Positions 7,737-19,605 of a DNA stretch of 64,000 nucleotides are shown piece by piece. The first letter of the stretch is position 1. Each line of letters begins with the position of its first letter. Origin of the DNA: Flammeovirga pectinis. Lineage in GTDB: Bacteria > Bacteroidota > Bacteroidia > Cytophagales > Flammeovirgaceae. Position numbers and translations under genes: made by a program. The stretch lies in the NCBI RefSeq assembly GCF_003970675.1, contig NZ_CP034562.1, positions 2,542,001 through 2,606,000 of the forward strand, read 5' to 3'. A model generated the notes under the pieces. That model was given only the letters and a program-made list of their open reading frames with translations, was not told the DNA's origin and did not search any database.

Positions 7737-8564
7737 ATGCAACGTGACATTGAAATTGCCGAATTAAGAAAACTCACAACATTTATTGACGATAACTTCG
7801 ATTATGACTTTAAGAATTATGCAATGTCATCTTTCACTAGAAGAGTCAAAAGAGTTATTGAATTATATAAGTTTTCTTCTGTTGATATTTTAATCAAAAA
7901 ATTCAAGAATAACCCTAGTTTCTTTCAAGAATTTGTTTCTGAAATAACCGTAAATGTTACTGAAATGTTTAGAGATCCAACTTTTTGGAAATCTCTTCAT
8001 GATGACATCATACCTGAAGTTATGAATGAACATAAAAAAATTAGCGTATGGCATGCTGGGTGTTCTTCTGGTGAAGAAGTTGTTTCGATGTGTATAATGC
8101 TTGAAGAGCTTGGGTGTTTATCACAAGCCACTATTGTAGCTACTGATATTGATAAATCTATCATTAGTAAAGCTAAAAAAGCTCGTTTCACAGAAAAAAA
8201 CATGACGCTTAATCAACAAAACTATGAGCGTTATGGTGGCACAAAGAGTATTTTTGATTACTTCATAAAAGAAGACAACTATTATTACATTAAACCTGAG
8301 TTAATTGATAGAGTTTCTTTTAGAGTTCAAGACTTAGTTAAAGGGAATCCTTTTTCTAAATTTGATCTTATTCTGTGTAGAAATGTGATGATTTACTTCA
8401 ATCAGACCTTACAAAATGAAGTACTAAAAAAATTACACAATAGTCTTTTCAAGTATGGCAACCTTGCAATTGGGTCTAAAGAATCATTGATTTGGTGTGA
8501 TATTGCAAATAAGTTCGTTGTAGTAAATAACGAAGAAAAGATTTATAAAAAAATTAAAGACTAA
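7737..8564 (+). CDS. cheR: CheR-type protein-glutamate methyltransferase
   Basis: This 275-residue protein has a CheR N-terminal helical domain (FKNYAMSSFTRRVKRVIE) and an SAM-binding methyltransferase domain with WHAGCSSGEEVVSM (motif I), ATDID, and the LCRNVMIYFNQ motif. In chemotaxis CheR methylates receptor glutamates. Here no CheA, CheW or classical receptor is adjacent. The gene is followed 10 bases later by a lone CheB domain, then by a GAF membrane protein and a PP2C phosphatase. It may therefore methylate a sensor of this block, such as the Cache-HAMP protein at 10294; that is inference. The family call is secure. Confidence 0.9.
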   Translation: MQRDIEIAELRKLTTFIDDNFDYDFKNYAMSSFTRRVKRVIELYKFSSVDILIKKFKNNPSFFQEFVSEITVNVTEMFRDPTFWKSLHDDIIPEVMNEHKKISVWHAGCSSGEEVVSMCIMLEELGCLSQATIVATDIDKSIISKAKKARFTEKNMTLNQQNYERYGGTKSIFDYFIKEDNYYYIKPELIDRVSFRVQDLVKGNPFSKFDLILCRNVMIYFNQTLQNEVLKKLHNSLFKYGNLAIGSKESLIWCDIANKFVVVNNEEKIYKKIKD

Positions 8565-8573
8565 CTACTGATT

Positions 8574-9170
8574 ATGCAAAGTAATTTGTTTGATACGAAA
8601 TATAAAGGCATAGTCATTGGTGGGTCAGCAGGTAGTTTTAAACCTATCACAGAATTATTAGCAGAGTTACCAGAAGACTTTCCTATTCCAATTTTTCTTT
8701 GTCTGCACAGACTTAAACATGTGCGCCATGGGTTTATTGAGGCTTTATCTATTAGAAGTAAGAAGCCCATTTACGAACCTCAAGACAAAGAATCTATAAG
8801 ACCAGGGATGGTTTACTTAGCTCCTTCAAATTACCATATGTGTATAGAGTTAGGTAATTCTATATCTTTATCTACAGAAGATCTTGTTAATAATTCAAGA
8901 CCAGCAATAGATCTCACTTTTATGAGTGCAGCATATACATATAAGGATAAATTAATTGGCATCCTCTATTCTGGAGCAAATAAAGATGGTGCAATTGGTA
9001 TGAAATCAATAAAAGACAAAGGTGGAATTACTATTATTCAAGATCCTGAAGAAAGTATGATGAACACTATGCCATTGTCTGCAAAAAACTGCACAGAGAT
9101 AGATTTATGCCTTGAATCGAAAAAAATTAAAAATTTTCTACTCGATTTATACAAGGCTTACCAAAAATGA
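8574..9170 (+). CDS. cheB: CheB-type methylesterase domain protein without receiver
   Basis: This 198-residue protein consists of the CheB C-terminal esterase/deamidase domain only. The catalytic triad is visible: Ser in GGSAGSFKP, His in LCLHR, and Asp in SGANKDGAIG. Genuine CheB has an N-terminal receiver that is phosphorylated by CheA; it is absent here, consistent with lack of CheA nearby. Stand-alone CheB domains occur in Bacteroidota beside CheR and hybrid kinases. Its activity would oppose the upstream CheR. The 9-base gap to cheR indicates one operon. Confidence 0.9.
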   Translation: MQSNLFDTKYKGIVIGGSAGSFKPITELLAELPEDFPIPIFLCLHRLKHVRHGFIEALSIRSKKPIYEPQDKESIRPGMVYLAPSNYHMCIELGNSISLSTEDLVNNSRPAIDLTFMSAAYTYKDKLIGILYSGANKDGAIGMKSIKDKGGITIIQDPEESMMNTMPLSAKNCTEIDLCLESKKIKNFLLDLYKAYQK

Positions 9171-9224
9171 ACGTTACTACATTGACTCTTGTGAGATTTT
9201 TTTCAAGCAAACTATTATAGTATT

Positions 9225-10262
9225 TTGAAAACAGCACAAAAAAGAACAAATATTAGAGATAAAGCGATACACACGGTGTATAGAAAACCTGCAATCATTT
9301 TTGCAGGTCTTGGCATCTTCGTATTTACATTAATCTTAATTTTAGAGAATCAATATCCAAACATTCTCTCTCTTGTAGGTATTCTTGATACCAAAGAATT
9401 TAATAGAGAAGCATATATTCAAACACTCCAGTACATAGACTTAATGTTTATAATTGGAATGATTTATCTATTTGCTAGGAACTCTAAAACATTCAACCTC
9501 ATTTTAGGAATTGTATTCCTACTTCTGTCTTTACACGCTATTTCTGAGATTTATGAATTGCCAATCAAAATTCTTAATCATTTAGAAATTTCCGATGATA
9601 AAATCATTGTTCAAGTTAAAGAAGTAAGTAGTACAACTTTCTATACTTTAGGTTTCACCTTTGCAGTACTTGTATTTTTACTTTTCAGACTAATATCTGA
9701 TTTAATGCAAGACCCAGAAGATCAAATTATTTATGTACCTAAATATTTTTCAAAAGATAATCAAAACCTCGAAAGTGAGTTGAGAGATTCCTTTGATGAA
9801 CGTGCATCTTTAATTAAAAAGAACATCCAATCTGCCATTATTAATTTAGGAGACGAAGATAAAGAACAGAAGCTTTTAAATGCTATTTGTAAAGAATTTC
9901 AAGTTTCTACTGGAATCTATTACAAATCTATTAATGTTGATGGTAAAGATATGATTCAGTATTCGAAAGGTTTTTCTTTCTATCTTCCAGATTCTAAAAT
10001 GCTGATGTTTGAATATGGCGAAGGACTTCCTGGACAGGTTGCTAAAACAAGATCTTCTATTATTTCTAATGCAATACCAGAAAATTACATTCGTGTTGTA
10101 TCTGGTTTAGGTGATAGTTCACCAAAGTCATTAATGATATCTCCTATCTTGGATACCGATCAAAACCTCCTTGGAGTAGTAGAACTTTCATCGTTTAAAA
10201 CATTCACTCCAGAAGACAGAGAAATTTTAGATAAAGTAACCGTTTGGTTTACTGAAAATTAA
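9225..10262 (+). CDS. Membrane protein with C-terminal GAF domain
   Basis: A 345-residue protein starting at a TTG codon (no ATG precedes the first membrane segment). Four hydrophobic segments are visible at about residues 22-42, 70-88, 92-110 and 137-158, followed by a linker and a GAF-like domain at about 195-345 (LLNAICKEFQVSTGIYYKS, GLPGQVAKTRSSIISNAIP, SLMISPILDTDQNLLGVVEL). There is no kinase, cyclase or phosphatase domain, so it is likely a sensory or accessory subunit. The GAF resembles that of the downstream phosphatase, and the 31-base gap suggests they act together. The ligand is unknown. Confidence 0.75.
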   Translation: MKTAQKRTNIRDKAIHTVYRKPAIIFAGLGIFVFTLILILENQYPNILSLVGILDTKEFNREAYIQTLQYIDLMFIIGMIYLFARNSKTFNLILGIVFLLLSLHAISEIYELPIKILNHLEISDDKIIVQVKEVSSTTFYTLGFTFAVLVFLLFRLISDLMQDPEDQIIYVPKYFSKDNQNLESELRDSFDERASLIKKNIQSAIINLGDEDKEQKLLNAICKEFQVSTGIYYKSINVDGKDMIQYSKGFSFYLPDSKMLMFEYGEGLPGQVAKTRSSIISNAIPENYIRVVSGLGDSSPKSLMISPILDTDQNLLGVVELSSFKTFTPEDREILDKVTVWFTEN

Positions 10263-10293
10263 TAAATTTATCTAGTGAAGTAAATATATATAT

Positions 10294-13200
10294 ATGCTTT
10301 TTCAAGATTTAAAGATACGTACTAAGATTACGATAATCATGCTACTTGTTGTTACAATAACAGTAGTTGCGATTAGTTCACTTTCTTATTTCCAAACAGA
10401 GGATTCTGTTGAGAGAAGATACTCTGAAACATTTGATGTAATTAGTACATTAAAGGCTGAACAGATAGATCAAAAGTTCAAATACATTGAACAGAACTTG
10501 AAATACATGGCAAAGTCTGCTTTAATTGTTAGTAACGCTACCAAATTAAAGTTACTTTTTCAGTCTAAATCAAGATCATATAAAGATTCTACCTATTATG
10601 CCATTAAGAGAACTCTTGATAACGAGTTATTCCCTAAACAGATTGTAAATGGGTACTCAAATATCATTTTAACAGATAATAAAGGTAATGTACTATATAC
10701 TAGTTATACATTTCCTGCTTCTGTTATTGTAGGTGATAGAAATAAGAAATTTGAGAAAATCATTAAAAAAGCAAAAACAAAAACATACTTCTCAGAACCA
10801 TTTAATACTGAAAAAGGAGCTCATGTTTATGTAGTTTCTCCTAGAATGAAATCTAGATATGGAGAAATTGGTCACGTGATCATATTATATAGTTTACAGA
10901 AAAATATTTATCCAATTGTTGAGAATAGAACAGGACTTGGTGATACTGGTGAAATTCTACTTTCAAGAATATCAGATAACCAATCAAACAATGTTACTAT
11001 CATTTCTCCACTAAAAGGAAGTCAAAATTTACTTACTGAAGTGATCAGTTTAGGTGACCCTTCTAATATTGCAATCCAAAAAGCTGCAAAAGGCGATTCT
11101 AAAGATTTTGGATATGATATTGATTGGCGTGGTAAGAAAACGATTTCATATTGGAACTACATCCCTACCACAAATTGGGGTCTAGTAGTAAAAATTGATT
11201 ATGACGAAATTAAAAGTGGATTAAATGGATTAATTTTAACATTTGTCTACACTGCAATTATCATTATTCTAATTTCAATGCTGATTGCTGTAATTTTCTC
11301 TAAGTTTTTGACTAGTCCGATTATTACACTGAAAAATCGATTAAATTTTATTGCAAAAGGTATTTTACCACATGAGGTAACTGCTGAAATCCATAAAGAT
11401 GAGATTGGCGAAATGTCATTTGCCGTTCAAGAAGTGGTAAATGGTATGAAAAGAACTGCAAACTTTTCAGAACAAATTGGTGAAGGAAATTATGACGCGA
11501 CCTACTCATCTCTTAGTGATGATGATACTTTAGGTAATGCGTTAATTTCAATGAGAGATAGTATTCAAAGAGCAGAAAAAAGAGATTATGAAAGAAATTG
11601 GATTATTACAGGTGAAGCTGAAATTGGCCAAATTCTTCGAAATAACAACGATATTAGTACTTTAGGTGATGAAGTTGTGGCTTTTACAACTGAAAAAATC
11701 AATGCTGTTCAAGGTGCATTTTATGTGGTTGAAGGTGTTACAGATGAATTACCTATAAACGAACAAGTAATTCATTTAGTAAGCACATACGCATACAATA
11801 AGAAACGTTTCTTACAGAATAAATTCAAATTTGCAGAAGGCCTTGTTGGGCAAGCTGCAATTGAAATGGAAATGATTCTAAGAACAGAAGTCCCAAATAG
11901 TTACTTATCAATAACATCAGGATTAATGGGAGAGAAAAAACCCGATTCAATCTTGATAATGCCTTTAATTGCTAACGATAAAGTCTACGGTATTCTTGAG
12001 TTCGCATCATTAGAAGCCTTCTCTCCTATGACACTTGATTTTGTAAAGGAAATCTCGCATATCATTGCAAGAACAATCTTTAACATCAAGATTAACGAAA
12101 GAACAATTAAGTTACTGAAAGAATCTCAACAAATGAGTTCTGAACTTTCAGTACAACAAGAGATTTTACGTCAGAATGCGGAAGAGATGGAATCTACTCA
12201 AGAAGAACTTCAACGTACAAATACACGTCTTGAAGAACAAGTTGAGGAAGTTAAACACTCACAAGATAGATTACAATCTTTACTTGAGAACGCATCCGAG
12301 GTTATTACCATATTTAATAGTGATGGAAAAATTAAATTTGTCAGTCCATCATCTAGACACATTTTAGGTTACAAACCAACTGACTTAATTGGATCTTCTT
12401 ACTTAGAACACTTACATAAAGATAGTGTTGATGTAGTAAAAGAATTTATCAATAATTTAGTCACTTCAGAAAATAAAGATACAATCAGTACTGAGTACCG
12501 CTACAAGCTACAAGATGGTAGATATATATGGCTAGAAGCAACTGGTATTAACCTTACCAATGAGCCATCTATAGAAGGTATTGTATTGAATGCTCAAGAT
12601 ATTACAGAAAGAAGAAGAGCAGAAACAGAAAGAAGAATGAGAACGCAAATGCAAGCGTTATCAGAAAACTCTCTTGATCTAATCCAACGACTTAATAACG
12701 AAGGGTTAATTTTCTATACTAACCCTATTATTACAGATTTAACAGGATTATCTTCTGATCTCTTCTTAAATCAAAAAATAGAAGATACTGCCTTACCACA
12801 ACATATTATTGATGAGTGGAAAAATATGTTGGTTGAAGTTTCTTCTACTTCAGAGAAAACAACAAAAGAAGTTGAATTCCCTACAAGCACTGGCAATAGG
12901 TTTATGACTGTTACTGCAATTCCGGAATTTAATGAATCTGATGAATTTGAAAGTGCTTTATTTGTATCTCATGATATTACTGAACGTAAGAAAGCTGAAT
13001 TAGAAATCTTATTGAAAAACAAGAAGATTACTGAAAGTATTAACTACGCTAAGAGAATTCAAGGTGCAATAATCCCTGATACAGACATTATTAAACGTGA
13101 TTTACCAGATAGCTTTATATTTTATAAACCAAAAGATGTAGTAAGTGGTGATTTCCCTTGGTACTTCAAAAAAGGCGATGATATATATATAGCTGCTGTA

Positions 13201-13779
13201 GATTGTACAGGTCATGGTGTACCAGGTGCGTTAATTTCGCTTATTGGTTACTTCATTCTTAATGATATCGTTCAAAACAATGATAATATTACACCTGGAG
13301 AAGTATTAGATTTATTACATCAAGGAGTTTCTAAAACTCTAAGACAAGATTCTAATAGCAGCACTAGAGATGGTATGGACATTGCTCTTGCAAAGATAAA
13401 TCTATCTACAAAAGAAATAGAATATGCAGGTGCTCATCGCCCTCTATATCTTTTCAAAACAAAAGAAAATGACTTTATTCAAGTAAAAGGAAGTAAATTC
13501 CCTGTGGGTGGAGAATATAAAACTAGAACTAATTTTGCTACTCACCACTTACAACTTGAAGAAGGAGACGAAATTTACATGTTCTCAGATGGATATCCAG
13601 ATCAGTTTGGAGGCGAAGAGAACCGTAAATTTGGTGCAAAAAGAATACGTGAATTAATTACAAATACGGAACATTCGTCTATGGAAGAAATTGCTAAAAC
13701 ATTTAATGATACATTTATGACATGGAAAGGCAATTCTAAGCAGACTGATGACGTTATTATGATAGGCATACGATTTTAA
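10294..13779 (+). CDS. Cache-HAMP-GAF-PAS-PAS-PP2C (SpoIIE-type) sensor phosphatase, SiaA-like
   Basis: A 1161-residue membrane phosphatase. Order: TM1 about 11-31, a periplasmic double-Cache-like region to about 310, TM2 about 315-336, HAMP about 337-395, GAF about 470-600 (GLVGQAAIEMEMILRTEVP), coiled coil about 610-665, two PAS domains about 660-905, and a SpoIIE/PP2C domain from about 920. The catalytic metal motifs are VVSGDF, AVDCTGHGVPGALIS and SDGYPDQFGG. In one motif Pro replaces the common Tyr (SGDFPW rather than SGDFYW). SiaA of Pseudomonas is also a HAMP-PP2C phosphatase acting on SiaC. The next two genes are SiaB- and SiaC-like, so dephosphorylation of the 14471 product is the natural prediction. 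Confidence 0.87.
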   Translation: MLFQDLKIRTKITIIMLLVVTITVVAISSLSYFQTEDSVERRYSETFDVISTLKAEQIDQKFKYIEQNLKYMAKSALIVSNATKLKLLFQSKSRSYKDSTYYAIKRTLDNELFPKQIVNGYSNIILTDNKGNVLYTSYTFPASVIVGDRNKKFEKIIKKAKTKTYFSEPFNTEKGAHVYVVSPRMKSRYGEIGHVIILYSLQKNIYPIVENRTGLGDTGEILLSRISDNQSNNVTIISPLKGSQNLLTEVISLGDPSNIAIQKAAKGDSKDFGYDIDWRGKKTISYWNYIPTTNWGLVVKIDYDEIKSGLNGLILTFVYTAIIIILISMLIAVIFSKFLTSPIITLKNRLNFIAKGILPHEVTAEIHKDEIGEMSFAVQEVVNGMKRTANFSEQIGEGNYDATYSSLSDDDTLGNALISMRDSIQRAEKRDYERNWIITGEAEIGQILRNNNDISTLGDEVVAFTTEKINAVQGAFYVVEGVTDELPINEQVIHLVSTYAYNKKRFLQNKFKFAEGLVGQAAIEMEMILRTEVPNSYLSITSGLMGEKKPDSILIMPLIANDKVYGILEFASLEAFSPMTLDFVKEISHIIARTIFNIKINERTIKLLKESQQMSSELSVQQEILRQNAEEMESTQEELQRTNTRLEEQVEEVKHSQDRLQSLLENASEVITIFNSDGKIKFVSPSSRHILGYKPTDLIGSSYLEHLHKDSVDVVKEFINNLVTSENKDTISTEYRYKLQDGRYIWLEATGINLTNEPSIEGIVLNAQDITERRRAETERRMRTQMQALSENSLDLIQRLNNEGLIFYTNPIITDLTGLSSDLFLNQKIEDTALPQHIIDEWKNMLVEVSSTSEKTTKEVEFPTSTGNRFMTVTAIPEFNESDEFESALFVSHDITERKKAELEILLKNKKITESINYAKRIQGAIIPDTDIIKRDLPDSFIFYKPKDVVSGDFPWYFKKGDDIYIAAVDCTGHGVPGALISLIGYFILNDIVQNNDNITPGEVLDLLHQGVSKTLRQDSNSSTRDGMDIALAKINLSTKEIEYAGAHRPLYLFKTKENDFIQVKGSKFPVGGEYKTRTNFATHHLQLEEGDEIYMFSDGYPDQFGGEENRKFGAKRIRELITNTEHSSMEEIAKTFNDTFMTWKGNSKQTDDVIMIGIRF

Positions 13780-13915
13780 GCTAATAAATACTTGTTAGTT
13801 TGATATGTTTATTTATATTTGATAATCTTTTTTTTACATCTTGCTATTTTAATAGAGTAAAGATATTAATACAGTGTCTTTGACTATACACTGATTAAAT
13901 TATTTGTTCGGACAT

Positions 13916-14464
13916 ATGAAATACATCTACGAACTTCACAGAACAATGCTTGATAAAGATCTTATCCTTATTTATGAAGGAGAGATCACGCAAGACATAA
14001 CCAAATCTGTCTTATCCATGGCCGAAAGGAATATGGATTCATATGGAGAACAATCAAAGATCAAGAGAAAGGTCTTTAATGTTATGGTTGAATGTTTGCA
14101 AAACATCAGTAAATATGCTGTCCCGATGGAACCAACTTCTGATAAAAAGAACAGTGCTGTCTTTATGATCGGCAAAGAAGATGATTCTTATTTTATCACA
14201 TCGGGAAACCCAATACTTTCTAAAAATGTAAAAGACATTGCTAACAGATTAGAAAGAATTAATGACCTTGATAAAGACGGTCTTAAAAATTTATATAAAG
14301 ACATTATCAAAAATGGCAAGATCTCTGCTAAAGGTGGTGCAGGTCTTGGTTTTATTGATATGGCACGAAAATCAGGCGAGAAACTTCGTTTTGATTTTGA
14401 ACCCATCAATGATGAGTTCACATTTTTTTCTCTTAAAACGACAATTCCAAGGAAACTAAAATAA
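13916..14464 (+). CDS. SiaB-like protein kinase (DUF6272)
   Basis: This 182-residue protein resembles the SiaB family of GHKL-type serine/threonine kinases. It has an N-box-like FNVMVECLQNISKYAVP, a central region with MIGKEDDSYFITSGN, and a glycine-rich ATP lid AKGGAGLGFIDMARKSG. SiaB phosphorylates SiaC, the regulator encoded immediately downstream (6-base gap). I prefer ATG 13916 over a TTG at 13904, because the added MFGH residues are not part of the fold. It follows the PP2C phosphatase after 136 bases, so kinase, phosphatase and target are together. Family assignment rests on motif order, not alignment. Confidence 0.82.
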   Translation: MKYIYELHRTMLDKDLILIYEGEITQDITKSVLSMAERNMDSYGEQSKIKRKVFNVMVECLQNISKYAVPMEPTSDKKNSAVFMIGKEDDSYFITSGNPILSKNVKDIANRLERINDLDKDGLKNLYKDIIKNGKISAKGGAGLGFIDMARKSGEKLRFDFEPINDEFTFFSLKTTIPRKLK

Positions 14465-14470
14465 CAATAC

Positions 14471-14833
14471 ATGAAAGTCCTTAATCTAGCCGGCACGGAG
14501 GATACACCAAAAGTCATCTTGGACAAAGACAACGAATTGTTTGAGATTTCAGGTAGATCACTTCCTGAAGATTCTGCAGAATTCTTTGCACCAATTTTAA
14601 ATTGGATCGACGGTTATTCTGAAGAAGCATTATCGAGTACTAAGTTTTTATTTAAACTTGAGTATTTCAATACAGCCTCATCAAAACTTATTTTAGATGT
14701 TTTATCTAAATTAGAAGAAATCGAAGGAGTAACTGTAGTATGGTATTATCATGAAGATGATGAAGACATGCAAGAAGCAGGTGAAGAATTCGAAGAATTA
14801 GTCGAATTAGAATTTGAATTCGAAACGTACTAA
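14471..14833 (+). CDS. SiaC-like regulatory phosphoprotein (DUF1987)
   Basis: This 120-residue protein is a DUF1987/SiaC homologue. The family phosphosite region is visible as FKLEYFNTASSKLILD, with Thr at residue 68, the same number as the reported phosphothreonine of Pseudomonas SiaC. In that system unphosphorylated SiaC activates the diguanylate cyclase SiaD, and SiaA and SiaB set the phosphorylation state. No GGDEF protein is in this window, so the partner here is unknown; the ABC transporter encoded next is a candidate. The C-terminus is very acidic (EEFEELVELEFEFE). A strong terminator follows. Confidence 0.88.
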   Translation: MKVLNLAGTEDTPKVILDKDNELFEISGRSLPEDSAEFFAPILNWIDGYSEEALSSTKFLFKLEYFNTASSKLILDVLSKLEEIEGVTVVWYYHEDDEDMQEAGEEFEELVELEFEFETY

Positions 14834-14850
14834 AATTAATTAGTACTCTA

Positions 14851-14889
14851 AAAAAACACTTGATTATTCGACTTAATCAAGTGTTTTTT
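14851..14889 (+). terminator. Terminator after the siaC-like gene
   Basis: Bases 14851-14866 and 14874-14889 form a 16-bp perfect stem with loop TTCGACT, ending in a T-run. It separates the phosphoprotein from the ABC transporter gene, though readthrough is possible. Confidence 0.88.
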
Positions 14890-15021
14890 TTATTTATCTC
14901 AAGAAAAATCTTCTTGAAATACAATATTTCCCCAAACTATAGCATTAAATAAATGTATACTTTTCAATAAGTATATACTATTTAATAAAGATTTGAATTT
15001 CCGTAGTAGACACGGTACTCT

Positions 15022-18000
15022 ATGAGTGAAGAAATACTAAAAGCACTGACGCAATTATTTGCAATTATATCTACTCAAGACGAAGGTTTAACTTCAGTAG
15101 AGAGAGATTTTGTTATCAAGTTCCTTAATCAGGAACTTGAAAAACGATCAGTCGAAGAATATATCCAATTGTATGATCAGCTTATTCAAGATGAAGAAGA
15201 TCGTATTGCTAAGAGAAAAGCAAAAGCTGCGAAGAAAAGAGCTGCTAAAGGAGAATCTGCGGATGCTGACAACGCATTAACAGATGCTGTTTCAGTACGT
15301 AATTCAGTGCGTACCTTATCACTTTGTAGAAAGATTAACAAAACACTAGATCAAAAGCAAAAAACCATTGTTATGGTTAAACTTTTGGAACTAGTCTCTT
15401 CTGACAAATCATTTACTCCTCAGCGTATGGATATTATCCATACAGTTGCAGATGTATTTAATATACCTTCTCCAGAATATAAATTATTAGAAAGATTTAT
15501 AATCGAGACACATTCATCAAAAATTGACAATGAGGATATCCTTATTTTCGATGATGAAATGCCACCAGAAGGAAGCAAAATTAAATTTATTGATTCTGGT
15601 TTACTTGATGGAGAAATCATCTTTATTCGCCTAAAAAGTGTTGCTTTATACTTCACTAAATATACAGGTAAAGATACCATTTACTTAAATGGACAACCTG
15701 TGGCAGCGAATACAATTCACCTCTTCTCTCCAGGTAGTATTTTTAAAACACCAAAAGGTGCACCTCTATACTATAGTGATCTTGTAAACAAGTATAATTC
15801 TGATGAAATTAATGGCAACATTTCTTTCATTGTAGAAAACTTAGAATATAAATTCCCGAATGGAGGTATAGGACTAAGAGATATTAATTTTGGTGAAAAT
15901 TCAGGTCAGCTAATTGGTATTATGGGCGCTTCTGGTGCTGGTAAAACTACACTTTTAAATGTACTAGCAGGCTTAGAGACACCTTCCGGAGGAGAAGTAA
16001 GAATTAATGGATATAATATCCATAAAGAAAAGCATAAAATTGAAGGTGTTATTGGGTATATAGCTCAAGACGATCTTTTAATTGAAGAACTCACAGTATT
16101 CCAAAACTTATTTTATAATGCTAAGCTCTGTTTTAAAGACATGAGCGAAGAAGAATTAACAAATAAGGTTACTGAGGTTCTAGAAAGTTTAGGACTTGAT
16201 AGAATTGCTCATTTAGTTGTGGGTAATGTTCTTAATAAAAAAATATCTGGCGGCCAAAGAAAACGTCTGAATATAGCATTAGAATTAATTCGTGAACCAG
16301 CAGTAATGTTTGTTGATGAACCAACTTCTGGTTTATCATCACGTGATTCTGAAAATGTAATTGACTTACTAAAAGAACTTTCTTTAAAAGGAAAATTAAT
16401 TTTCGTTGTTATTCATCAACCATCATCAGACATCTACAAAATGTTTGATAAGATGTGGTTGCTCGATACAGGTGGATATCCGGTATTTTATGGTAACCCA
16501 ATTGAAGCAATTACTCATTTTAAGAGTGCTGCTGGACAGGTTGATAGTGATCAAGGACAATGTAATACCTGTGGTAATGTAAACCCCGAACAGCTTTTCA
16601 ATATTATTGAAGCACAAGTGGTTGATGAATATGGTGAGTTTACAAATAAGAGGAAAGCAACTCCAGAAGATTGGTATAGAATATATACAGAAACTTTTGA
16701 GAAACCAGACGTTGAAGAAGTTCATGTAGACCCTCCTAAAACGTTAAGGATACCTTCTAAACTGAAACAAACTGCAATTTTTACAGTAAGAGATTTCTTA
16801 TCTAAATTCAGTAATAAACAGTATCTTCTAATTAACTTATTAGAAGCTCCATTCTTAGCTCTATTATTATCTTGGATTATATATTATATAAAAGATGGTG
16901 ATACTGAATACCTTTTCAGACACAATGAAAATGTTCCTGCTTATATATTAATAGCAATTTTAGTTGCATTATTTATGGGTATGACCGTAAGTGCTGAAGA
17001 GATAATTAAAGACAGGAAAATAAAGAAAAGGGAGTCATTCCTGAACTTAAGTAGGTCTAGTTATCTATTTTCAAAGTTATTTATCCTTTTTGGCTTTTCA
17101 GCTGTACAAACAGCAACATTTGTCTTAATTGGCAATACAATTCTTGAAATTCCAGACTTATCATTTGCCTATTGGCTAGTACTGTTTTCAGTTTCTTGCC
17201 ATGCGAACATGATTGGTCTAAATATATCTTCTGCATTTAACTCTGCTATTACTGTTTACATTTTAATCCCTATTCTTTTGATTCCTCAAATGATTTTAAG
17301 TGGATTAATATTTGATTTCTCGAAATTAAACAACACAATTAGTCAGCATGGTAAAACACCATTAATTGCAGATGTTATGACATCTAGGTGGGCATACGAA
17401 GCATTATCTGTTGAACAGTACAAGAACAACAGATATGAAAAACCATTCTTTGACATTGACATGAAACTAAGTCAAAGTAATTACAAGAGTGCCTATTGGG
17501 AGCCGAAGATGGAAGAGATTTTATATGATGTACAATTAAATAGTAAAAATACTAATGATAGTACTGCTAAAATATTAAAATCTGATATTCTTACTTTAAC
17601 CAATGAAATTAATTCTGATTTATTCTTTACTACTCATTCTGATAAAAAAGAATTGGCTTTAGATTATTTATCAGATGGTAAAGTATCTTCTAACGAAGGA
17701 AATAAACTTAGAAAGATTTTCTACGAGTCATCAATTTTCTATAACGATATTTTAATTAAAGCTGAGGAAGAGCGTGATACTAAGATATATAAGATGAAAA
17801 AAGAGTTAGGCGATAAGTTTGATCTTTCTAAATCTAAAAATCTTTATTACAATAATCAGCTAGAAACGTTCGTGAAAAACAAAAATGTTTTGAACAGAAC
17901 TGTAGTTGATCACAATAGAATTGTTCAATTAATTGATCCTATTTTCTTCATAAAAGAGAATACTTCTGGACCACTTGATTATAGAACTCATCTTTTTGCA

Positions 18001-18168
18001 CCTGTAAAGAAAGTATTTGGCACATATATTGACACATTTGCATTTAATGTGCTTATGATTTGGCTTATGTCACTTATACTATACCTCACATTATACTTTG
18101 AACTACTTAAAAAGTTCATTGAAGGTGTTGAAGTACTATTGTCAAGAATAATGTCAAAAGAAGCATAG
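15022..18168 (+). CDS. ABCG-type ABC transporter with N-terminal TerB-like domain
   Basis: A 1048-residue half-transporter. Residues 1 to about 150 are helical and TerB-like (LFAIISTQDEGLTSVERDFV), with a Lys/Ala-rich linker at about 58-80. Residues about 175-265 look like a degenerate FHA or cNMP-like beta domain (IYLNGQPVAANTIHLFSPGS). The ATPase follows: Walker A GASGAGKTT near residue 303, Q-loop IAQDD, signature ISGGQRKR near 408, Walker B VMFVDEPTSGL and VIHQP. A CNTCGN pair of cysteines follows. Membrane segments start near 610; the last is near 1015-1035, after a long soluble insertion. The substrate is unknown. Its position behind the Sia-like genes suggests it could be the regulated output. 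Confidence 0.85.
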   Translation: MSEEILKALTQLFAIISTQDEGLTSVERDFVIKFLNQELEKRSVEEYIQLYDQLIQDEEDRIAKRKAKAAKKRAAKGESADADNALTDAVSVRNSVRTLSLCRKINKTLDQKQKTIVMVKLLELVSSDKSFTPQRMDIIHTVADVFNIPSPEYKLLERFIIETHSSKIDNEDILIFDDEMPPEGSKIKFIDSGLLDGEIIFIRLKSVALYFTKYTGKDTIYLNGQPVAANTIHLFSPGSIFKTPKGAPLYYSDLVNKYNSDEINGNISFIVENLEYKFPNGGIGLRDINFGENSGQLIGIMGASGAGKTTLLNVLAGLETPSGGEVRINGYNIHKEKHKIEGVIGYIAQDDLLIEELTVFQNLFYNAKLCFKDMSEEELTNKVTEVLESLGLDRIAHLVVGNVLNKKISGGQRKRLNIALELIREPAVMFVDEPTSGLSSRDSENVIDLLKELSLKGKLIFVVIHQPSSDIYKMFDKMWLLDTGGYPVFYGNPIEAITHFKSAAGQVDSDQGQCNTCGNVNPEQLFNIIEAQVVDEYGEFTNKRKATPEDWYRIYTETFEKPDVEEVHVDPPKTLRIPSKLKQTAIFTVRDFLSKFSNKQYLLINLLEAPFLALLLSWIIYYIKDGDTEYLFRHNENVPAYILIAILVALFMGMTVSAEEIIKDRKIKKRESFLNLSRSSYLFSKLFILFGFSAVQTATFVLIGNTILEIPDLSFAYWLVLFSVSCHANMIGLNISSAFNSAITVYILIPILLIPQMILSGLIFDFSKLNNTISQHGKTPLIADVMTSRWAYEALSVEQYKNNRYEKPFFDIDMKLSQSNYKSAYWEPKMEEILYDVQLNSKNTNDSTAKILKSDILTLTNEINSDLFFTTHSDKKELALDYLSDGKVSSNEGNKLRKIFYESSIFYNDILIKAEEERDTKIYKMKKELGDKFDLSKSKNLYYNNQLETFVKNKNVLNRTVVDHNRIVQLIDPIFFIKENTSGPLDYRTHLFAPVKKVFGTYIDTFAFNVLMIWLMSLILYLTLYFELLKKFIEGVEVLLSRIMSKEA

Positions 18169-18234: not shown

Positions 18235-19137
18235 ATGAAGACCAAATATCTAAATACATTGGCAGCATCAGTGCTACTTGCATCATCTGTATCAATGGCT
18301 AGTGAATTGCCTAAAGATAAAGTTAAGTTAAGTACTGAGGAAGCCCAACCTACAAAAGTAACACAAGAGGTGTTACCTGTTACTGAGGTGTTGGAATCTA
18401 TTCCATCCCCTTTAGAAATATCTGTATTAATTAAAGAAAACGGAACAATATACAATAAAGGTGATATGAATGCACCAGATGCTGTTTCGAGATACAATAC
18501 AACATTTCAAAAGGCAATTAACCTCGGTATATACGGAACCGATTTAGGGTTTGCAAACATCTACGGAAAAAATCAAGATGCAATTACTTATCTAAATTCA
18601 GTTAGAGATTTAGCTGATGGTTTAGGTATTGGAGCATTCTTTGATTACGAGACTATTAAAGAATTAGCTGAGAGTTCGAACAGGTTGGATGAATTAATTC
18701 AACAAACGACTCTTAACTTTGAAAAAATAAATAATAATTTAAGAGAGAGAAAGCGAGAAAACGTAAGTGTTCTAATTCTTGCTGGAGGATGGATTGAAGC
18801 TGTTTACTTAACAACAGTAGTAAATAGCAGAGAGCCTAATGACCTTCTTAAAGATAAAATTGGTGATCAGAAAATTGTATTAGATCAATTATTATTAGTT
18901 TTAGACATCTATAAGTCTAGTGCTGGTTTTGAAGATATAATAAATGATTTAACTGCACTTCAAGAAGTATATGACGAAATCGAAATTGAGGTTATCGTAG
19001 GAGAGCCTACAATGGAAGAGATCGACGGTGTACTTGTTGTAACAGACGGCACAAGAAGTGTTGTTCATGTAACTGACAGTGATATTCAAAAGATCACAAG
19101 TTTATTAAAATCTATTCGTAACAAGGTTATTAAATAA
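18235..19137 (+). CDS. Secreted protein of unknown function
   Basis: A 300-residue protein with a signal peptide (MKTKYLNTLAASVLLASSVS, cleavage near SMAS). The mature part is mostly helical: a conserved-looking motif around DAVSRYNTTFQKAINLGIYGTDLGFANIY, then heptad-like segments and the end LKSIRNKVIK. I do not recognise the family by name. Similar periplasmic helical proteins occur in Bacteroidota. It lies 66 bases after the ABC transporter and 39 bases before another secreted protein, so all three may be co-transcribed. A periplasmic partner of the transporter is possible but unproven. Confidence 0.65.
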   Translation: MKTKYLNTLAASVLLASSVSMASELPKDKVKLSTEEAQPTKVTQEVLPVTEVLESIPSPLEISVLIKENGTIYNKGDMNAPDAVSRYNTTFQKAINLGIYGTDLGFANIYGKNQDAITYLNSVRDLADGLGIGAFFDYETIKELAESSNRLDELIQQTTLNFEKINNNLRERKRENVSVLILAGGWIEAVYLTTVVNSREPNDLLKDKIGDQKIVLDQLLLVLDIYKSSAGFEDIINDLTALQEVYDEIEIEVIVGEPTMEEIDGVLVVTDGTRSVVHVTDSDIQKITSLLKSIRNKVIK

Positions 19138-19176: not shown

Positions 19177-19605
19177 ATGAAAAAAATATTCTTAGCATTC
19201 TCACTAATGTTTGCTCTTTTCACTCTTAACGAAGCAAACGCTCAATGTAACGCAGAACTTTATGTTACAAAGAGTATGAAAGAGTTAAATCCAGGATTCC
19301 AATTCTCTAAGAGTTACAGAATCGATGGTCGTAACGGTACACGTCGTAAAATTGAATACACTTGTGTATTAGCAAAAGATACTAGTTACCAAATTACTAT
19401 TTCTGGTAAAGATGGTGGAGCCCAAGGCTTAATTAGTACTTTATATGACGCTAAAAGACGTAGAATTATCTCTAGTTTCTATAACAATAGATTCTTAGGC
19501 ACTTGGACTTACAAATGTACATCTACAGGTATTTATTACTTAAGTTTTACATTTAAAGATTCTAAGAGCTACTGTGGTGCAGCAGTTCTTGGCTTTAAGA
19601 GATAA
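19177..19605 (+). CDS. Small secreted protein of unknown function
   Basis: A 142-residue protein with a clear signal peptide (MKKIFLAFSLMFALFTLNEA, cleavage after ANA before QCNAEL). The mature domain is about 120 residues, beta-rich, with four cysteines (Cys in QCNAEL, EYTCVL, YKCTST and SYCGAA) that could form two disulfides. It includes a pattern typical of small beta-sandwiches (YQITISGKDGGAQGLISTLY, GIYYLSFTFKDS). No known family is recognised. It is the last gene before a strong terminator, closing the block that starts at cheR or at the ABC transporter. Confidence 0.65.
   Translation: MKKIFLAFSLMFALFTLNEANAQCNAELYVTKSMKELNPGFQFSKSYRIDGRNGTRRKIEYTCVLAKDTSYQITISGKDGGAQGLISTLYDAKRRRIISSFYNNRFLGTWTYKCTSTGIYYLSFTFKDSKSYCGAAVLGFKR

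Follow-up and report, generated by a model that had tools for sequence, protein, structure and literature searches.

In Pseudomonas aeruginosa, the kinase SiaB phosphorylates threonine 68 (T68) of the phosphoprotein SiaC and SiaA acts as the phosphatase, while phosphorylation of T68 blocks the binding of SiaC to the stalk helices of SiaD, as described in two reports (PMC8457831, PMC7647112), the first of which suggests that DUF1987 proteins modulate “adjacent proteins”. A cluster of nine genes of Flammeovirga pectinis, located in the window (the whole stretch of 64,000 nucleotides analysed here, positions 2,542,001 to 2,606,000 of contig NZ_CP034562.1), shares with this siaABCD system a PP2C phosphatase, a kinase and a DUF1987 phosphoprotein with N67-T68, encoded in the same order, and differs from it in having no SiaD and in adding CheR, CheB, a GAF membrane protein, an ATP-binding cassette (ABC) transporter with TerB and FHA-like domains, and two exported proteins. 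The SiaA-type PP2C phosphatase, the SiaB kinase and SiaC, being encoded together, form a SiaABC partner-switching module by gene content. The core is a new SiaABC member, and its combination with CheR-CheB and a transporter, without SiaD, is new, with no published description found in open-access full text.

The additions recall other described systems. Specifically, the adaptation of chemoreceptors by CheR and CheB shares with the cluster both enzymes, with their catalytic motifs, and a putative target coil with heptad-spaced glutamate pairs, and differs in that the CheB of the cluster is receiver-less, its target would be a sensor phosphatase lacking the hairpin of the methyl-accepting chemotaxis proteins (MCPs), and many of the genomes have no MCP or CheW. 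A STAS-like protein as the regulator of an ABC transporter is known from MlaFEDB, in which the action of the STAS protein MlaB on the ATPase MlaF is a precedent (PMC7367683). Moreover, FHA is joined to ABC in the Rv1747-type transporters, which two reports link genetically to a Ser/Thr kinase (PMC5549992, PMC3908365), but here TerB stands in front, the FHA-like domain has no obvious phosphothreonine-binding residues, and a SiaB-type kinase and a dedicated phosphatase stand in place of PknF. The reading tentatively favoured here, with prospects somewhat short of even, is that a methylation-tuned SiaABC switch would control the transporter through its N-terminus.

A conserved SiaABC cluster without SiaD

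Reading frames and family scans bear out the gene row of the initial annotation, from 7737 to 18168 and with the Sia genes in the order described there: CheR, CheB, the membrane GAF protein, SiaA, SiaB, SiaC and the TerB/ABCG-type transporter, all on the + strand. The conserved unit extends past the transporter by two further genes (18235-19137 and 19177-19605), for nine in total. SiaA (10294-13779), SiaB (13919-14464) and SiaC (14471-14833, STAS-like) were matched to the P. aeruginosa structures 6k4e, 6kko chain A and 6kko chain C, respectively, with 104 bits for the PP2C domain of SiaA (E 8.9e-29), 60 bits for SiaB and 53 bits for SiaC, and N67-T68 of the window SiaC is aligned to N67-T68 of its P. 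aeruginosa counterpart. SiaB is assigned to DUF6272 (E 3.7e-44) and to the NCBIfam family SiaB_fam_kinase (183.5 bits, cut-off 85), and SiaC to PF09345 (E 6.3e-38); the NCBIfam equivalog cut-offs are reached by neither (94 of 225 bits for SiaB, 80 of 150 bits for SiaC). The domains earlier ascribed to SiaA were recovered for Cache, GAF, two PAS and PP2C, in the order dCache-HAMP-GAF-coil-PAS-PAS-PP2C/SpoIIE, with a HAMP that is weak (7.7e-4 on a fragment and 20.2 bits, below the cut-off of 25).

Conservation was assessed in the best 80 of 402 loci by SiaC similarity, which are therefore orthologues by choice, with up to 10 kb on either side; gene presence near SiaC was scored by tblastn, and open reading frames (ORFs) were taken by script, longest first, without a gene caller. 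These relatives, whose taxa are the names carried by the sequence records, are mostly of Cytophagales type (Flammeovirga, Fulvivirga, Marivirga, Cesiribacter, Flexithrix, Chryseolinea and many metagenome-assembled genomes (MAGs)); two of them (L134 and L135) are near identical. The complete set of eight SiaC neighbours was found in 61 of the 69 full-length loci, the other 11 of the 80 being too short on one side. Among the eligible loci, the counts are 67/73 for CheR, 67/73 for CheB, 68/74 for the GAF protein, 76/79 for SiaA, 80/80 for SiaB, 75/77 for the ABC gene, 69/74 for the gene of a 300-residue protein and 66/73 for that of a 142-residue protein; the six loci without CheR also lack CheB and the GAF protein, and siaBC and the ABC gene are retained in four of them. 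The metX and pheA genes that flank the cluster in the window are common to just 5 of the 80 loci, all of them Flammeovirga. The functional residues are kept as well: the pattern N-T-(A/S)-S with Thr68 in all 76 relatives for which a SiaC ORF was called, the Glu/Asn box of SiaB (E58 and N62 in the window) in 78 of 79, and rough PP2C patterns of SiaA in 70 to 77 of 77, the window proteins having the catalytic motifs of PP2C, CheB and CheR.

Other SiaB or SiaC loci look different. In a control set of 30 such loci, with stretches of 8 to 20 kb (4 from the same genome, the rest from other Bacteroidota), none carries the full gene set; CheR is found in 0 and CheB in 1, as a 338-residue protein with partial similarity of 32%, and a full-length TerB-ABC gene with the 300-residue gene in 1, on the opposite strand (L074 of genome G045). 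The rarity of the additions in these loci indicates that the Sia core is widely reused and that CheR-CheB and the transporter belong to one orthologous line. Moreover, relatives of the TerB-ABC protein that align over most of its length occur in 5 of 296 genomes of the phylum, all 5 with SiaB over the cut-off, which was reached in 22 of the 395 genomes of the SiaB search. The neighbourhood comparison proposed in the initial annotation thus finds both CheR-CheB (67/73) and the ABC gene (75/77) conserved with the Sia genes.

The claim that no GGDEF cyclase accompanies the Sia genes holds locally and in the whole 6.68 Mb genome of F. pectinis, in which GGDEF gives no match (8 of 14 control genomes do match). 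Likewise, no match over the cut-off was obtained in any of 50 genomes (G045 and 49 that carry the cluster), with one match below it (G418, 21 bits), so that SiaD is excluded as the partner; the distant universal GGDEF partner considered in the initial annotation was not found in these genomes. The earlier interpretation is in this way supported in part, by the conserved linkage and by the absence of such a partner. A classic partner switch, in which the cluster would act on transcription through an anti-sigma or sigma factor that SiaC releases or binds, is very improbable: SiaC is structurally near the anti-sigma factor antagonists (PMC7647112), but the conserved part of the cluster contains no sigma or anti-sigma gene, the unconserved neighbours being only partly identified.

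In relatives of the Cesiribacter/Nafulsella type (L086, L087, L088 and L098), a second Sia locus lies directly beside the cluster, downstream of it, and codes for SiaC, a SpoIIE protein and a SiaB of double length (about 367 residues, with two SiaB stretches). A few kb downstream of the cluster of another relative (L112, 16378-17792), and similarly in 35 of the 80 loci, there are a ubiE-like gene and an outer membrane gene (Pfam OMP_b-brl_2) that we take to be PorT-like; a link to type IX secretion is possible, as is mere synteny.

The methylation enzymes and the coil of SiaA

CheR (7737-8564) is a protein-glutamate methyltransferase by family (PF01739, E 1.8e-42) and by its match to the solved CheR 5ftw (E 7e-28). 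CheB (8574-9170; PF01339, E 1.2e-45; aligned to 3sft) has 198 residues that comprise the esterase domain only, in agreement with the earlier description of a CheB without the receiver that characterizes chemotaxis CheB. Judging from sequence patterns, both enzymes carry their catalytic motifs, which recur in 68 of 69 relatives for CheR and, for CheB, in 67 of 67 for GGSAG and in only 49 of 67 for DGA. The next gene (9225-10262, with a TTG start as listed) codes for a membrane protein of an unnamed family with a C-terminal GAF domain (PF13185, 1e-9).

A candidate substrate is found in SiaA itself. In an alignment of 76 SiaA proteins divided into 11 segments, conservation peaks in the coil that joins GAF to PAS (residues 596-656; 12079-12261), with a mean of 0.83, followed by the linker before PP2C (0.81), PP2C (0.77) and GAF (0.72), down to Cache, the lowest (0.36). 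Its motif, QN-x-EE-M-x-AT-QEE, contains glutamate pairs seven residues apart, and such heptad-spaced pairs resemble the methylated helices of chemoreceptors. The motif is present in 66 of the 77 SiaA proteins of the cluster versus 0 of 24 other SpoIIE proteins, in 24 of 26 long ORFs that lie no more than 400 bases upstream of cheR, and in 4 of 338 other long ORFs, all four of which lie 0.5 to 1.2 kb upstream of cheR. Since the conserved coil with its glutamate pairs is, outside SiaA, largely confined to sensors upstream of cheR, it is likely to be a methylation site in SiaA, and we infer that CheR and CheB modify this class of coils, SiaA included. One such upstream sensor was scanned (that of L112); it contains HAMP, GAF and PAS and, in this family scan of a single sensor, no output domain.

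In the F. pectinis genome, five more GAF proteins (L193-L197) have a coil similar to EEEMxQNxEELQATQEE, as SiaA does, and show no output domain by Pfam in the stretches covered, two of which are cut. These proteins may be a class of methyl-accepting sensors.

The genome of F. pectinis has one MCP, of 2090 residues with 13 PAS domains, about 2.6 Mb away from the cluster. Its gene is grouped with those for CheW, CheA, a CheC-like protein and a ParA-like ATPase, a set spread over the two ends of contig 1 (5199523-5207776 and 1-2514; L190 and L191), and lacks a cheB of its own. The earlier statement that CheA and CheW are missing accordingly holds around the cluster and fails for the genome as a whole. 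That CheR and CheB serve this single array, and stand among the Sia genes by chance or for dosage, is improbable: the CheB of the window is the only CheB match in the genome and the array lies on the same contig, but CheB has no receiver that CheA could phosphorylate, and the pair persists where no array is detected. Specifically, an MCP match is absent from 23 of 52 genomes searched (51 with the cluster, and G045; L107 was left out), two of the 23 being repeats, and in 20 of 20 distinct MCP-less genomes with the cluster there is no match to CheW either and CheR-CheB are kept in the cluster, several of these genomes being drafts or MAGs that may miss genes. The CheW search left out G045, which has no MCP, and, as did the GGDEF search, L110 and L165, apparent repeats of G186 and G146. 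In genomes that have neither an MCP nor a CheW match, CheR and CheB most likely have another substrate, while in F. pectinis the CheB of the window may also serve the distant array. The proposal of the initial annotation that the sensor is adapted by methylation gains support, at the level of sequence, from the glutamate-pair coil of SiaA and from the persistence of cheR-cheB without MCP and CheW.

The linked transporter and the possible target of SiaC

The transporter (15022-18168; PF00005 and PF01061) lies behind the Sia genes, as annotated earlier, with an FHA-like domain now added between TerB and the ATPase. Its ATPase is followed by the ABC2 membrane domain in a single chain, which is the ABCG-type arrangement (ABCG2 aligned over residues 297-771), and about 200 residues (781-985) are inserted ahead of the last hydrophobic segment. 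TerB occupies approximately residues 1-160 (15022-15501; PF05099, 28.7 bits, cut-off 24.4; 50 of 51 members at E 1). In a structural model of the N-terminus (predicted local distance difference test, pLDDT, 87; predicted template modelling score, pTM, 0.80), TerB is followed by a predicted FHA fold at approximately residues 165-265 (15514-15816); comparison of the model gave modest scores, with nearly all the matches shown being FHA or TerB proteins.

Downstream, the 300-residue helical protein (18235-19137, by structure model) and the 142-residue protein (19177-19605, no Pfam or NCBIfam match) have signal-peptide-like starts; a lipobox pattern is present in the former in 52 of 72 relatives and absent from the window copy. 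The F. pectinis genome and three relatives contain a second TerB/FHA-like ABC gene with a relative of the 300-residue gene and no Sia genes nearby (2324435-2327260 of contig 1, L070; also L075-L077). The ABC gene has the 300-residue gene as its neighbour in all 4 of these unlinked loci and in L074, so that the helical protein is likely to be the partner of the transporter.

Comparison of the linked and unlinked copies indirectly supports transport as the output of the switch. In the pair G146 and G186, the N-termini are identical at 181 of 242 positions in the linked copy versus 96 of 235 in the unlinked one (p 6e-14), while the ATPase and permease are identical at 363 of 430 versus 351 of 432 (p 0.24). 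The N-terminus is far more conserved in the linked copy in 6 of 6 genome pairs (p ≤3.5e-5), which are non-independent and represent at most three independent lineages, and in 4 of the 6 linkage also goes with somewhat higher conservation of the ATPase and permease (p 0.0019 to 0.035); these two qualifications belong with the counterarguments gathered below. The conservation of the N-terminus in linked and not in unlinked copies suggests that it has a conserved task missing in the latter, for which SiaC is the obvious, though not the sole, candidate partner.

Two other explanations bear on these results. In the first, which is the less unlikely of the two, the SiaABC switch is real and SiaC acts elsewhere, on an unlinked enzyme, a sister sensor or the GAF membrane protein, with the ABC genes being only neighbours that are required under shared conditions. 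It agrees with the terminator-like hairpin that separates siaC from the ABC gene, with the ABC and 300-residue genes existing elsewhere without Sia genes, and with the presence in the genome of five SiaC copies, two of them without SiaB nearby, but no neighbours follow siaC more faithfully than SiaA, SiaB and the ABC gene (75/77), which stays when cheR-cheB are gone, the special constraint on the N-terminus is found in the linked copy, and in G045 siaBC adjoin the TerB-ABC gene and the 300-residue relative on opposite strands. In the second, the transporter is the input: the Cache domain of SiaA senses flux or the exported partners, as in flux-sensing pairs of transporter and sensor, and SiaC acts elsewhere. 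This is a slim prospect, with which the low conservation of Cache, as expected of a sensor, and the signal-peptide-like starts of two cluster proteins are consistent, but the extra conservation of the linked copy sits in the cytoplasmic N-terminus and not in the insert 781-985.

One of the SiaC copies of the F. pectinis genome (L067, 7934-9012), with no SiaB nearby, adjoins a small ion-channel gene (Ion_trans_2), whose product is a possible further target of SiaC.

Several observations weigh against control of the transporter by a methylation-tuned switch. The hairpin 3' of siaC (14850-14890, + strand) is AT-rich and very strong, with 17 pairs and then a T run, which makes co-transcription of siaC and the ABC gene doubtful in F. 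pectinis; the median gap between these genes is 89.5 bases in 72 relatives. Since the transporter and the 300-residue relative occur without Sia genes, with the same N-terminal layout, TerB and the FHA-like domain are not specific Sia receptors, and the constraint on the linked N-terminus could reflect another partner. The FHA-like domain shows no invariant Arg/His at the expected phosphothreonine-binding sites, which were placed by eye at low identity, and thus seems to be without the canonical residues. With regard to the coil, 11 of 77 cluster SiaA proteins have no exact motif, some being cut by contig ends; the motif is kept at two loci that have no cheR-cheB nearby (L092 and L102) and altered at a third (L103). 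Lastly, siaBC occur without the ABC gene in 2 of 77 eligible loci, G045 has no MCP and no cheR-cheB at its Sia-ABC locus, and synteny with cytidine deaminase (40/80) and the PorT-like gene indicates that conservation within the lineage is partly general.

The proposed circuit and its significance

In the favoured reading of a methylation-tuned switch acting on the transporter, SiaA would be a membrane sensor phosphatase that removes the phosphate from Thr68 of SiaC, and SiaB would restore it, as expected from homology. CheR and CheB would methylate and demethylate glutamates in the GAF-PAS coil of SiaA and in the sister GAF-coil sensors, and the methylation of the coil would set the gain of the phosphatase, as it does for chemoreceptors. 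Unphosphorylated SiaC would dock on the TerB/FHA-like N-terminus of the transporter, in the place of SiaD, and turn the ABCG-type transporter on or off, which outside the cytoplasm would be partnered by the helical protein and the other, smaller exported protein. MlaB belongs permanently to an MCE-type lipid transporter as one of its subunits, whereas SiaC would here be a phosphorylation-switched partner of a fused transporter of the ABCG type. A stronger form of the proposal, to be held more tentatively still, is that chemotaxis-type glutamate methylation gives a PP2C switch memory or adaptation without CheA, CheW or chemoreceptors, and that SiaC directly gates an ABC exporter through the TerB/FHA-like domain.

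Outside the SiaD case, no experimentally named target of DUF1987/SiaC was found in the literature, and the cluster provides a concrete candidate in a large environmental group of Bacteroidota without GGDEF proteins. Moreover, it offers a natural case in which CheR-CheB are kept without a detectable chemosensory array and with a defined candidate substrate helix, so that a direct test becomes possible of whether sensors of other kinds are adapted by glutamate methylation, and it names two exported proteins of no known family and the transporter as one functional unit. By joining a phosphorylation switch of biofilm control to methylation enzymes and a transporter, the conserved cluster suggests a signalling circuit with a new type of output.

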